From the NCBI GenBank assembly GCA_016182655.1, contig JACPGB010000025.1, forward strand, positions 1 through 64,000: a DNA stretch of 64,000 nucleotides, given 5' to 3'. Source of the DNA: Deltaproteobacteria bacterium. GTDB lineage: Bacteria > Desulfobacterota > GWC2-55-46. Shown piece after piece: positions 3,637 through 63,097 of this stretch (position 1 is the first letter of the stretch; the number at the start of each line of letters is the position of its first letter). Made by a program: the position numbers and the translations under genes. The notes beneath the pieces were generated by a model. It was given only the letters and a program-made list of their open reading frames with translations. It did not search any database and was not told the DNA's origin.

Positions 3637-6111
3637 GTGCGCATGAGAACAGGCGTAGGCATCCTTTCGTTGCTACTCGTTTTTATTCTGATGTCATGCG
3701 GGATCGGCAACGAGACTTCGTCGGATAAAACACTCTCCGCGGTCTCGGTTTCGCCGAACGGGTCGAGTATCGCACAGAGCGCCACAAGGCAGTTCGCGGC
3801 CTCCGGTACCTTCTCTGACGGGACCACGGAGGACCTGAGCCTGCGGGTCTCATGGACCTCGTCGGACGAATCCGTTGCGACCATAGACGCAAGCGGGCTT
3901 GCCACGGCAGTAGCCGAAGGCACGGCGACGATAACTGCCGAGTACGGGGGCGTCTCCGGGCCTGCGACGCTTACGGTCACCACCGCAACCATTTTATCAA
4001 TAGCCGTAACCCCGGCGGACCCTTCGATCGCAAAGGGCACCGCAAGGCAGTTCACGGCGACCGGGGCCTTCTCCGACGGGACGACGCAGGACCTGAGCGA
4101 GATGGTCTCATGGACCTCGTCGGACGAATCCGTTGCGACCATGGACGCAAGCGGGCTTGCCACAGGCGTAGCCGAAGGCGCGGCAACGATAACCGCGTCC
4201 TACGTCGGCCTCTCAGGCTCCACGACGCTTACGGTTACCTCCGCGACCATCTCTTCTATCGCTGTAACCCCGGCGGACCCGACGATCGCAGAGGGCATTG
4301 CAAGGCAATTTACGGCCACCGGTACCTTCTCTGACGGGACCACGCAGGACTTGAGCCTTCAGGCGGCATGGAATTCGTCGAACGAATCCGTTGCGACCAT
4401 GGACGCAAGCGGGCTTGCCACAGGCGTAGCCGAAGGCGCGGCAACGATAACCGCGTCCTACGGCGGCCTCTCAGGCTCCACGACGCTTACGGTTACCTTG
4501 GCCCATGGGGCTTCCTGGACATTACGGTCAACCCCTCATCTCTATGCGATTGCCTGGTCAGGCTCGTTGTTCGTTGCCGTGGGCAAGAACGGAGTGATCC
4601 TTACCTCGCCTGACGGTAATGTCTGGACCGAGCGCTCTTCGGGAACTACCAATGGCTTGTACGGCGTCACCTGGTCAGGCAGTCAGTTGGTTGCCGTAGG
4701 AGGGAGCGGTACAATCCTTACCTCTCCCGACGGCGTCACATGGACCGACCGCTCTTTAAGCTCTTCTAATTCTATAGAGGGGGTCGCATGGTCGGGTACT
4801 CAATTTGCCGCGGTGAGCATGAGCGGGGTCGTCTATACCTCGCCCGACGGCATCGACTGGACATGGAACTCTACGGGATATACAAATAAGAACCTGGAAG
4901 GCGTCGCCTCGTCAGGCTCTCAATGGGCGGCGGTGGGCGAGGGGGGCGAGATATTCACCTCGTCCGACGGCGTCACATGGACATGGCGCAATTCAGGGAC
5001 TAACGACTGGTTTTTTGGGATTACCTGGACCGGGTCCAAGTTCATTGCAGTAGGTGAAAACGGCGCGATAGTCACCTCTCCGGACGGGGTGACATGGACC
5101 GGTGAATCTTCAGGGACGGCTTCCACGCTGAGAGGGGTGGTTTCTGGCGAGCTTATAGTTGCTGTGGGCAATGTTGTAGTGACCTCTCCTGGGGACTGGA
5201 CAAAACGGCTGGATGGCTATTATCTATTCGGGGTAGCCTGGTCGGGCACCCGGTACGTCGCCGTTGGCCAGGGCGCGATACTTACCTCCGAGGACGGCAT
5301 TACATGGAATCCGGTCTCGGCAGGGATAGGCGACGACATAAACGATGTCTCCTGGTCAGGCGCAGGGTATGCCGCGGTAGGAAGCTCAGGTGCGGTCTTT
5401 ACCTCAGTTGACGGCTACATATGGACACCGCAGGATTCAGCGACGAGCTCAACCCTTGAAGGTATAGCCTGGTCAGGCTCTGAGTTCGTTGCCGCAGGAT
5501 GGTCTGGCGCGATCATTAACTCTCCGGATGGGGTTTTATGGACAGACCGGTCTAATTCGAATTACGGTAACCTGCGTGACATCGTCTGGTCTGGCACTCA
5601 GTTCGTGGCCGCGGAAAGCAGTAGTAATTTCTACATCTCCCCTGACGGGGTCACATGGACGCAGGTATCCTTAACGGCGAGCATCTACCCGCAAAGCATC
5701 ACCTGGTCAGGCTCTCAATTCGCGGCCGCAGGCTACACCGAGGTTGCCATTTCGCCTGACGGCATAACCTGGACGATCCACGATATGAGCACTTCCGGCT
5801 TTATTTACGGGATAACATCGTCAGGTTCTCTGTTTGTTGCCGTAGGCGACGGGGGCGCGATATTTACCTCTCCCGACGGGTCCGCATGGACACAGCAGGT
5901 CTCAGGGACCTCATCCAACCTGAAAGATGTAACCTGGTCGGGCGACCTTTTCGTATCGGTTGGGAGCGGCGGCACGGTCCTTACCTCCCCGGACGGTGTC
6001 GCATGGACGGTGCAGAGCTCGGGGACTACGGAAGACCTCAATTGCGTAAACTGGTCGGGCTCGCAGTTCGTGGTCATGGGCGCTAACGGAGTAGCGCTCA
6101 CCTCGCCTTGA
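3637..6111 (+). CDS. Surface lipoprotein: three Big_2 Ig-like domains plus 14 propeller repeats
   Basis: The 824-residue protein begins with a lipoprotein signal; the lipobox LMSC puts the lipidated Cys at residue 21. Residues 33-288 are three Ig-like (Big_2) domains of exactly 86 residues. From about 289 to the end there are 14 repeats of roughly 39 residues built on WSGSxFVAVGxxGxIxTSPDGVTWT, as in BNR/YCF48-like beta-propellers; 14 would make two seven-bladed propellers. Repeat 6 (about residues 507-538) is degenerate. GTG at 3637 is chosen because AAGGAGGA (3623-3630) sits 6 bp upstream; ATG at 3643 is the alternative. Binding or adhesion at the cell surface is inferred from domain types; no enzyme motif is visible. 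Confidence 0.88.
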   Translation: MRMRTGVGILSLLLVFILMSCGIGNETSSDKTLSAVSVSPNGSSIAQSATRQFAASGTFSDGTTEDLSLRVSWTSSDESVATIDASGLATAVAEGTATITAEYGGVSGPATLTVTTATILSIAVTPADPSIAKGTARQFTATGAFSDGTTQDLSEMVSWTSSDESVATMDASGLATGVAEGAATITASYVGLSGSTTLTVTSATISSIAVTPADPTIAEGIARQFTATGTFSDGTTQDLSLQAAWNSSNESVATMDASGLATGVAEGAATITASYGGLSGSTTLTVTLAHGASWTLRSTPHLYAIAWSGSLFVAVGKNGVILTSPDGNVWTERSSGTTNGLYGVTWSGSQLVAVGGSGTILTSPDGVTWTDRSLSSSNSIEGVAWSGTQFAAVSMSGVVYTSPDGIDWTWNSTGYTNKNLEGVASSGSQWAAVGEGGEIFTSSDGVTWTWRNSGTNDWFFGITWTGSKFIAVGENGAIVTSPDGVTWTGESSGTASTLRGVVSGELIVAVGNVVVTSPGDWTKRLDGYYLFGVAWSGTRYVAVGQGAILTSEDGITWNPVSAGIGDDINDVSWSGAGYAAVGSSGAVFTSVDGYIWTPQDSATSSTLEGIAWSGSEFVAAGWSGAIINSPDGVLWTDRSNSNYGNLRDIVWSGTQFVAAESSSNFYISPDGVTWTQVSLTASIYPQSITWSGSQFAAAGYTEVAISPDGITWTIHDMSTSGFIYGITSSGSLFVAVGDGGAIFTSPDGSAWTQQVSGTSSNLKDVTWSGDLFVSVGSGGTVLTSPDGVAWTVQSSGTTEDLNCVNWSGSQFVVMGANGVALTSP
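3739..4512 (+). repeat. Three tandem 258-bp units coding for Big_2 domains
   Basis: The same landmark (TGG followed by ACCTCG or AATTCG) falls at 3853, 4111 and 4369, an exact 258-bp period (86 codons). Units 2 and 3 are nearly identical over about 115 bp from 4126 and 4384, while unit 1 is more diverged. This points to recent duplication or gene conversion inside the lipoprotein gene. Confidence 0.85.
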
Positions 6112-7566: not shown

Positions 7567-7703
7567 TGAGGTCTACGCTCATCGACATCCCTGTCTCTTC
7601 GCTCCGACCCGGACTTTCTCGCTTCCGGCCTCATCCTGAGGCCTTTTCCTCGCACTTGCTCGGCGCTCGAAAGTTGTTCGAGTCCTCATTGGCATAAAAA
7701 AAT

Positions 7704-7732
7704 AAAAAGGGTCAGGAAAACCTGACCCTTTT
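7704..7732 (-). terminator. Strong terminator for tRNA-Leu
   Basis: GGGTCAGG (7709-7716) pairs with CCTGACCC (7721-7728) over AAAA, extended by A/T runs on both sides, so it can work in either direction. It begins just 8 bp beyond the tRNA CCA end. Confidence 0.85.
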
Positions 7733-7739
7733 ATTTTTT

Positions 7740-7824
<85 letters not shown>

Positions 7825-21074: not shown

Positions 21075-21256
21075 CTCCAATCACCCCGGCATGGTTTAAA
21101 TACGAAAATACTTGAGAGAACCTTTTTGTAAAAAGGGTGCTTGCGCACGGCAAATTCGAAAATCGGAATTTTAGGGCGACAAAGTTATTAGAAAATCGAT
21201 GTGATTTTGCCAGTCCGGCCAGGACCTCTCAAACTCTCTCCAAAAACTTTCAGTTC

Positions 21257-21408
21257 TTCCCGAACAGACCCCCATACAGTGGATAATAGATGTATAAAGC
21301 TATTTTTAACCTATGAGCTTATTTAAGTTTATTTATGGGGGTCTGTTCGGGAACTAAAAATCTTTGAAGGGGGTCTGGGGGAAACTTTCTACAGAAAGTT
21401 TCCCCCAG
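21257..21408 (-). repeat. Two-hairpin element after smc (copy 1)
   Basis: Read on the minus strand, hairpin A begins 13 nt after the smc stop: a 15-bp perfect stem (21408-21394 with 21389-21375) capped by TGTA. A 22-nt linker (CCCCCTTCAAAGATTTTTAG + TT) leads to hairpin B, formed by the 20-bp arms 21353-21334 and 21276-21257 around a 57-nt loop. The same order of parts follows glgA at 62880. Hairpin A has no T-tract, so it is not an ordinary terminator. The rest of 21081-21421 holds a second, inverted linker-like stretch at about 21236-21256 and nothing coding. Confidence 0.75.
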
Positions 21409-45280: not shown

Positions 45281-45845
45281 AAGCACTTTTGCGCGCTTAT
45301 TTCCCGGTTGTTTGCGCGCCGAGCGCAAGCGCCTAATCTACCCCGGCGCGCTCGCATCAATCTCCCTTGTGTGTTTGTAAAACAAAAAGCACGCTCTTTT
45401 AACTTCCCCTCCCTTGATGGGAGGGGACTGAGGGGAGGGTGAACTTCGGATAGGGGCAATTTCAAATCGTGCGGGCTGGGGTGCATTACGCAATACCGCT
45501 CGTTGTGATCTTGCCTGCCCGGCGGGGGCACCCCTCACCCCAACCCTCTCCCACAAGGGGAGAGGGGGAACTTCTTGCGGGTTTTTTAGTTTTTCAAAAC
45601 CCCCCTGGCATGGGGTGAGCGACCTTAAGGGAGGAAGCAATGTGAGCGAGCCGAGGAAGTAAAAAGGCGCGACAGCGCCCTAAGGGGCGAGCGGTCCTCG
45701 CCGGACTGGCAAGGTTCGTATCGAAGGCGATTCGTACCCTACCCTCAATAGCTTCCGAAGAACTCTGGCCCCGCGCCGAGCGGGGAGGGGGAGGGCGGAG
45801 GGAGCGAAGCCCCATGCCGAAAAAAAGCCCGGCAGGGCGCAAAAA
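45281..45845. repeat. Large inverted structured element, copy 1
   Basis: The right arm (45607-45838) is closed by a perfect 9-bp stem GGCATGGGG (45607-45615) with CCCCATGCC (45810-45818). Inside lies GGCGC-GACA-GCGCC, and a GCCC-GGCA-GGGC hairpin follows. A diverged inverted arm lies at 45281-45372 (GCGCGCCGAGCGC...), followed by TGTGTTTGTAAAACAAAA. Between the arms are other repeats (a CCCCTCCCTTGATGGGAGGGG palindrome near 45405 and a CTCTCCCACAAGGGGAGAG hairpin near 45545). Compared with 60840-61215 this copy has about 80 bp more in the right arm. The gap 45202-46118 holds no supported gene. Confidence 0.7.
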
Positions 45846-60839: not shown

Positions 60840-61215
60840 CTTTTGCCAAGGCTTTTTTGCGCGCTCCGCGCGCTTTTGGCGATGGCTCCAAGCGCTTTCT
60901 TCCTCCCCTGCCCGCTCGCGCGCCCCTTAGAGCGCTTCGCGTCTAATCTCCTCGGCGCGCTCACCTCTTCCTCCCTAAGGCGCTCTCCGCCATGCGCCCG
61001 TGTGTTTGTAAAGACAGAACAAAACAAAATTCATTTTTGTTTTTCAAAACTCCCCAGGCATGGGGTGAGCGACCTTAAGGGAGGAAGCCTTATGAGTGAG
61101 CCGAGGAAGTAAAAAGGCCGCGACAGCGGCCCTAAGGGGCGAGCGAATGGGAGGGGGAGGGTGCAGGAAGCGAAGCCCCATGCCGAAAAAAAGCCCGGCA
61201 GGGCGGTAAAGGCTT
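60840..61215. repeat. Large inverted structured element, copy 2
   Basis: The right arm is closed by GGCATGGGG (61057-61065) with CCCCATGCC (61176-61184), contains GGCCGC-GACA-GCGGCC (copy 1 has GGCGC-GACA-GCGCC), and is followed by a GCCC-GGCA-GGGC hairpin. The left arm (60878-60998) is a diverged reverse copy whose closing stem is GGCGATGGC with GCCATGCGCC, so the sequence changed but pairing survived. A TGTGTTTGTAAAGACA spacer follows the left arm as in copy 1. The 60698-61377 gap between pcrA and glgA holds no gene. Confidence 0.72.
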
Positions 61216-62879: not shown

Positions 62880-62978
62880 CCGTGGGAAACTTTCTGTAGA
62901 AAGTTTCCCACGGCCCCCTTCAAAGACTTTCAGTTACGGACAAAACCCCCGTGAAAAAAAAGGAGGGTTTTGTCCGTA
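62880..62978 (+). repeat. Two-hairpin element after glgA (copy 2)
   Basis: Hairpin A starts 5 nt after the glgA stop: a 15-bp perfect stem (62880-62894 with 62899-62913) capped by TGTA. A 22-nt linker (62914-62935) is 20/22 identical to copy 1. Hairpin B pairs ACGGACAAAACCC (62936-62948) with GGGTTTTGTCCGT (62965-62977) over an A-rich loop. Outer base pairs of both stems differ from copy 1 but keep pairing. Confidence 0.75.
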
Positions 62979-63097
62979 AAACCCTGAAATCCCCTGAAAG
63001 GGAACGAGGGATGCTTTCTTAAGAAATATCTCCTTCGAGTACGCTCGCAAGTCTGGCGATGCCGGGGTGGCATTAATCTTGCTTTTCTAACTACGGC

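Follow-up and report, generated by a model that had tools for sequence, protein, structure and literature searches.

Directly behind smc, whose identity is backed by the Pfam SMC domains PF02463 and PF06470, the minus strand of the window (the whole stretch of 64,000 nucleotides that was analysed) carries a large nested palindrome. An earlier note had described a two-hairpin element here; all of its parts are real, but they make up just the left half of a unit with the order P0 - A - L - B - L' - A' - P0', in which the outer arms P0 and P0' pair across the entire unit, L' complements L, and A' is a second small hairpin. Read along the minus strand, the 5' outer arm P0 (21409-21422, GGTACGGAAGATAC), a diverged terminal inverted repeat that pairs with 21093-21111 in the full-element fold, is followed by hairpin A (21375-21408, CTGGGGGAAACTTTC-TGTA-GAAAGTTTCCCCCAG), which has 15 bp and starts 13 nt past the smc stop, and then by linker L (21352-21374, ACCCCCTTCAAAGATTTTTAGTT). 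Since L' is imperfectly complementary to L, the two lengthen stem B, and L counts as the outer section of the long central stem. Hairpin B consists of a 5' arm (21334-21351, CCCGAACAGACCCCCATA), an AT-rich loop (21277-21333) and a 3' arm (21259-21276, TATGGGGGTCTGTTCGGG); at the orthologous smc site of genome G007 the same arms are found with one paired difference, and the loop is inverted. Past hairpin B, the copy reaches to about 21093 through L' (21229-21258, AAGAACTGAAAGTTTTTGGAGAGAGTTTGA), A' with a module X inside its stem (about 21111-21230, GAGAGG..CTTTTTACAAAAAGGTTCTCTC; X is GTCCTGGCCGGAC ... GCCGTGCGCAAGCAC) and the 3' outer arm P0' (21093-21111, GTATTTTCGTATTTAAACC), the pairing of the P0 arms at this locus (L003) amounting to -28.3 kcal/mol. 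The general form of A' is GAGAGAAC CTTTTT-RYA-AAAAAG GTTCTCTC, and the relaxed core pattern is matched also at 21120-21137, inside the A' of the smc copy. The 334 nt of this copy are predicted to fold at -125.7 kcal/mol into a cloverleaf, with A, L-B-L' and A' as its leaves and P0 as the closing stem. Over 57 elements, the two P0 arms of a unit pair with a mean of -21.4 kcal/mol, versus -11.5 when arms are combined across elements (p about 4e-21). The element is short and non-coding; from the end of A to that of A' it spans about 130-390 bp.

The second copy lies on the plus strand behind glgA, the identity of which is backed by the Pfam starch/glycogen synthase family PF08323. It comprises hairpin A (62880-62913; 15 bp, 5 nt past the glgA stop), linker L (62914-62935; 20 of 22 positions identical to the linker of the smc copy), hairpin B (62936-62977; arms complementary), and a decayed L' and A' (62978-63030) that were compared with the orthologues in G005 and G006. 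The comparison of the two copies in the earlier note was accurate: the order of parts is the same, including the TGTA loop, the outer pairs of stem A differ and still pair, the arms of B are largely different yet complementary, and both copies are in the sense orientation of their gene. It was likewise correct that A lacks a T-tract in either copy. An intrinsic terminator at A was rejected, as A is followed by AGACCCCC behind smc or by CCCCC behind glgA; a T-rich stretch is reached only in P0', where the unit ends.

Module X is found in the A or A' stem of some further copies too, and it looks like an independent small mobile module, since a filled and an empty X site occur within one window. 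These sites belong to a second dispersed repeat, whose copies at 45584-45844 and 61034-61210 share 92% identity over stretches of 85 and 62 nt; the one at 45584 has approximately 100 nt extra with X-like ends (GGTCCTCGCCGGACTGGC ... CGCGCCGAGC) and CGAGC on both flanks, and the copy at 61034 is without the extra sequence. Elsewhere in the window, a 33-bp inverted repeat (7684-7753) has an arm overlapping the 3' end of a tRNA-Leu gene (7740-7824, minus strand), and the ORF at 3637-6111, which encodes a repeat protein, contains direct repeats of two lengths, three of 258 nt and about ten of 117 nt (3769-6081).

When the window was shuffled, the core and linker patterns never or almost never occurred, and none of 100 shuffles reached the observed count of either. 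Further copies, whose absence would have counted against the earlier note, are present in the genome and its relatives, mostly just past stop codons. The genome itself has 31 places that match the relaxed core, with none for the reversed-pattern control, and in the family survey the core was present in 19 of 30 genomes at 0-28 per genome, the control again giving 0. The distribution is patchy, the complete genome of a congener, G008, having no core at all. Across the phylum, the A-L pattern was found in 15 of 395 genomes, and a genome of the same order, G268, holds about 190 near-identical copies. The single contig of G029 has 32 cores, so the copy number is not an effect of draft assembly. 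Carriers with names include the Deltaproteobacteria MAGs GWA2_55_10, the NC_groundwater series and UBA5799; BACT1 also matches. Near-identical hairpin A and linker L, without the right half, were seen in Oscillospiraceae MAGs of another phylum (HAN071-073; loci L046, L048, L050, L062, L066, L070, L074 and L083), and the plasmid and phage records searched with A+L gave no match. At locus L010 (approximately 1490-1720) a simple hairpin A lies directly upstream of a putative RNase P RNA gene, as judged by eye.

In the family set, the neighboring genes are tandem for 28 elements, convergent for 14 and divergent for 2, and another 14 have a flank without a gene call; the corresponding figures for G268 are 21, 2 and 6 (i.e., 6 of 29 callable copies divergent), with 26 having one side uncalled. 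In most copies the core begins 14-37 nt from the stop. Stop codons as the main target were considered and rejected, TAA and TAG together not being enriched (p=0.38); only stops in YTAR context are modestly enriched next to elements (40/117 vs 65/300, p=0.012). Since this enrichment is modest, overlap between target and stop codon may contribute to the placement yet would leave most of it unexplained; the rest may be due to insertions being tolerated behind genes, or conceivably to copies having been exapted as terminators. An apparent extension of P0 into coding sequence (41 of 58 gene ends) was set aside, as the alignment is prone to overshooting and orthologues were part of the control.

The history of individual sites was read from the 3' ends of the genes upstream of 12 copies in the genome under study, after these genes had been located in four congeners. 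The orthologous gene ends occur in five states: empty, A only, A plus X, full, and full inverted. G008 is empty at every site, and G005 and G006 are empty at one; G005 has a single hairpin at smc and argDC, and the hairpin with X is found at the ubiB and frr gene ends. Inverted full elements occur in G007 at smc and glgA, and in both G006 and G007 at a third site. The 63-nt B loop at the smc site of G007 matches that of G000 only as the reverse complement (score 50, versus 22 in the same orientation and a shuffle maximum of 39), and the loop at the third site does likewise (34 versus a shuffle maximum of 27-29). In both cases the whole element has been inverted while its site stayed fixed. In G008, the congener without the element, another palindromic repeat (AGCAGGCTGCTGAAAAAG...CTTTTTCAGCAGCCTG, enclosing a smaller palindrome around GTACGCCGCAGTGACGAGCGAC) occupies some of these gene ends; it was seen at loci L220 and L226 of G008 and at L028 of the genome under study.

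The ends of the unit are best read in G268, where the outer arms form a conserved terminal inverted repeat, GGAARCTCTGATTAATTACCCTG. Of the 26 copies with both terminal repeats, 10 have a perfect 4-bp flanking duplication, against an expectation of 1.5; none of 2000 shuffles gave more than 6, and duplicates of other lengths match near background. The duplicated 4-mers are TTAG, ATAG, TTAA, CGAG, AGAG, TTAT, TAAA and TTTT. In the family of the window, some copies have CAGGCTGCTGAAAAA-type ends flanked by TTAA/TTAA and CTAG/CTAG duplications, in a sample of 8 with p=0.04 only; within the genus P0 has diverged, and a target duplication is not readable. Given the GGAARCTCTGATTAATTACCCTG repeat in G268 and the CAGGCTGCTGAAAAA-like arms in the family, one inner core is apparently enclosed by two or more kinds of outer repeat. 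At three loci of G268 (L323, L361 and L364) the A-L...L'-A' frame is retained and a non-palindromic insert (TGGGCTAAAGAACCTCGTTTCC...GGAGCAAACAA) replaces hairpin B. A partner transposase was also sought. PF05598, an IS5-type transposase domain, was absent from the carriers tested, as was PF01609 apart from one match in G012, and an IS5-type partner defined by these two domains was rejected because it is missing from nearly all carriers. Overall, searches with PF05598, PF01609 and PF01797 did not account for the carriers and tied no transposase to the element, and the occurrence of Y1_Tnp in the family genomes does not track copy number.

We consider the element to be a non-autonomous, MITE-like miniature transposable element built of nested inverted repeats, and assign this reading a probability of roughly 80%; what makes it MITE-like is the terminal inverted repeat of G268 with its flanking 4-bp target duplication. 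The unit is short, non-coding and multicopy, and has terminal inverted repeats, a target-site duplication, and both occupied and empty orthologous sites; one of the two alternatives raised in the earlier note, a mobile palindrome at 3' ends, is thereby borne out by many copies with a patchy distribution, mostly just past stops. Against this reading stand the lack of a partner transposase among the domains searched, the diverged P0 of the genus with no readable duplication, the modest size of the YTAR enrichment, the dependence of the G-U count described below on codon-usage gene calls and a small tRNA control, and the presence of the core in at least two outer repeats, which is unexpected for a single simple MITE. 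In the mechanism that we propose, a transposase supplied in trans would move the element, and copies would survive mainly just past stop codons, since insertions there do little harm; the 4-bp target would often be TTAA, TTAG or ATAG, which can overlap a stop codon. After insertion, template switching between the arms during replication would keep the palindrome arms complementary, and a single such event would copy one arm from the other and flip the spacer as well, thus yielding paired changes without selection on an RNA.

The other alternative in the earlier note, namely that the paired changes reflect a functional RNA, was not supported by the young copies. In G268, A and L hardly vary, with changes in 77 of 4165 cells, and the variation in B is overwhelmingly paired in one family (i), with both arms changed together in 44 cells as opposed to 2 unpaired. 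In B family ii the numbers are 12 paired and 4 unpaired, a part of this being due to one copy whose two arms have matching deletions. Several of the paired B changes in G268 are restricted to a single copy, and on identical arm haplotypes the B loop is seen as either AA or TT, which are reverse complements. Had the arms mutated independently and been compensated afterwards, many stems should be caught in a half-changed state, yet paired changes are far more numerous than these. As an RNA under selection should show mostly G-U and rarely A-C mismatches on its transcribed strand, the two classes were also counted on the sense strand, with the arms aligned under equal scores for all transitions and the orientation taken from the adjacent gene, genes being called by a codon-usage score. 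No excess of G-U was seen in P0 (91 G-U vs 120 A-C) or in L-B (94 vs 109); the positive control was small, three tRNAs giving 4 G-U and 0 A-C. Template switching is known to homogenise the arms of inverted repeats and to invert their spacers (PMC8604942), and it makes compensatory changes in hairpins; it has also been put forward as a process by which RNA hairpins arise and are maintained (PMC8794818). From this pattern we infer that template switching between the arms is the cause. The compensating changes most likely arose at the DNA level, one arm having been copied from the other, so that they are no evidence for a working RNA.

A structured RNA at the mRNA 3' end, acting as a terminator, processing or stability element with its pairing held by selection, would nonetheless fit several features: the core lies within about 14-37 nt of the stop, the gene pairs of the family set are mostly tandem or convergent (42 vs 2 divergent), the predicted fold is very stable, and the site is kept in related species. 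We regard it as unlikely, because the sense strand has no G-U excess over A-C and is not even fixed, the element being inverted at orthologous sites; moreover, paired changes occur without half-changed intermediates, the complete congener lacks the element at the same genes, A is not followed by a T-tract, and 6 of the 29 callable G268 copies are divergent. Rfam gave no family at gathering score either, and its sub-threshold miRNA matches were taken as chance. A possible, if rather doubtful, alternative is a MITE of which many copies were exapted to terminate transcription in both directions, so that termination would explain why they are kept at 3' ends. In many copies the outer arm is A-rich at the 5' side and T-rich at the 3' side, the placement is convergent and tandem, and other MITEs have been discussed as terminators (PMC10969869), but purifying selection against insertions elsewhere predicts the same placement equally well.

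Two further explanations concern how the copies came about. That this is a REP/BIME-type repeat moved by a RAYT (Y1 HUH) transposase is suggested by the extragenic palindromes near 3' ends in composite arrays and by the Y1 transposases of some carrier genomes. It is very improbable, since G004, G006, G012 and G028 are rich in cores without a Y1 match, and the unit has long terminal inverted repeats and a 4-bp duplication and lacks the 5' GTAG tag. The duplication already contradicts this explanation; HUH transposition of the IS200/IS605 type is not known to leave one. The other explanation is that the assembler folded, flipped or homogenised the palindromes; in its favor, MAGs make up most of the genomes read, and contig ends are where many of the G268 copies are found. 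An artefact of this kind is hardly credible in view of the 32 cores of the single-contig genome, the inversion at one site common to two independent genomes (G006 and G007), and the B stems of G268, which at about 50 nt fit within single short reads. Lastly, by analogy with the flip/flop ends of hairpin-replicating DNAs, the element may be copied via a dedicated hairpin intermediate, a scheme that we hold to be quite unlikely; if true, arm copying and flipping would be part of its own life cycle rather than accidents of host replication.

Compensating stem changes are widely held to be the best evidence of a functional RNA. A mobile DNA palindrome appears here to yield textbook-looking compensation with the signatures of arm copying, i.e., paired changes in single copies, spacer flips, and no G-U bias. 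The roughly 190 young copies in one genome, together with the inversions at fixed sites, offer a natural data set in which template switching and RNA selection can be weighed as sources of covariation, and the G-U versus A-C asymmetry and the flip test may serve as simple filters in RNA discovery.

Among known systems, insertion sequences of the IS5 type have 4-bp YTAR targets, and they offer a lead in that they share with the element 4-bp duplications such as TTAG, TTAA and ATAG and terminal inverted repeats starting with GGAA; the difference lies in the carriers tested, which lack PF05598 and PF01609, with the one exception in G012. REP, REPIN and BIME repeats with their RAYTs are similar in that extragenic palindromes are combined into composites near gene ends, whereas the present element has terminal inverted repeats with a 4-bp duplication and no dependence on Y1 in the family. 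Bacterial MITEs and mosaic repeats are short, non-coding imperfect palindromes that are intergenic and often located 3' of genes, with patchy high copy numbers and with nested insertions such as the RUP/BOX/SPRITE clusters (PMC10969869; PMC2229807). The element shares its form, gene-end position, patchy copies and nesting with these repeats (ERIC, RUP, BOX, Correia, RPE, QMITE), and the searches made gave no sequence match to a named family. It differs from them in its three nested hairpins arranged as a cloverleaf, in having one core within different outer repeats, in a flipping central hairpin of changing sequence, and in the inversion of the whole element at fixed sites. Finally, the template-switch mutations described at quasi-palindromes are alike in combining arm homogenisation and spacer inversion in a single event (PMC8604942; PMC8794818); what differs here is that a single bacterial element shows the changes in dozens of its young copies, which makes the recurrence of switching countable.
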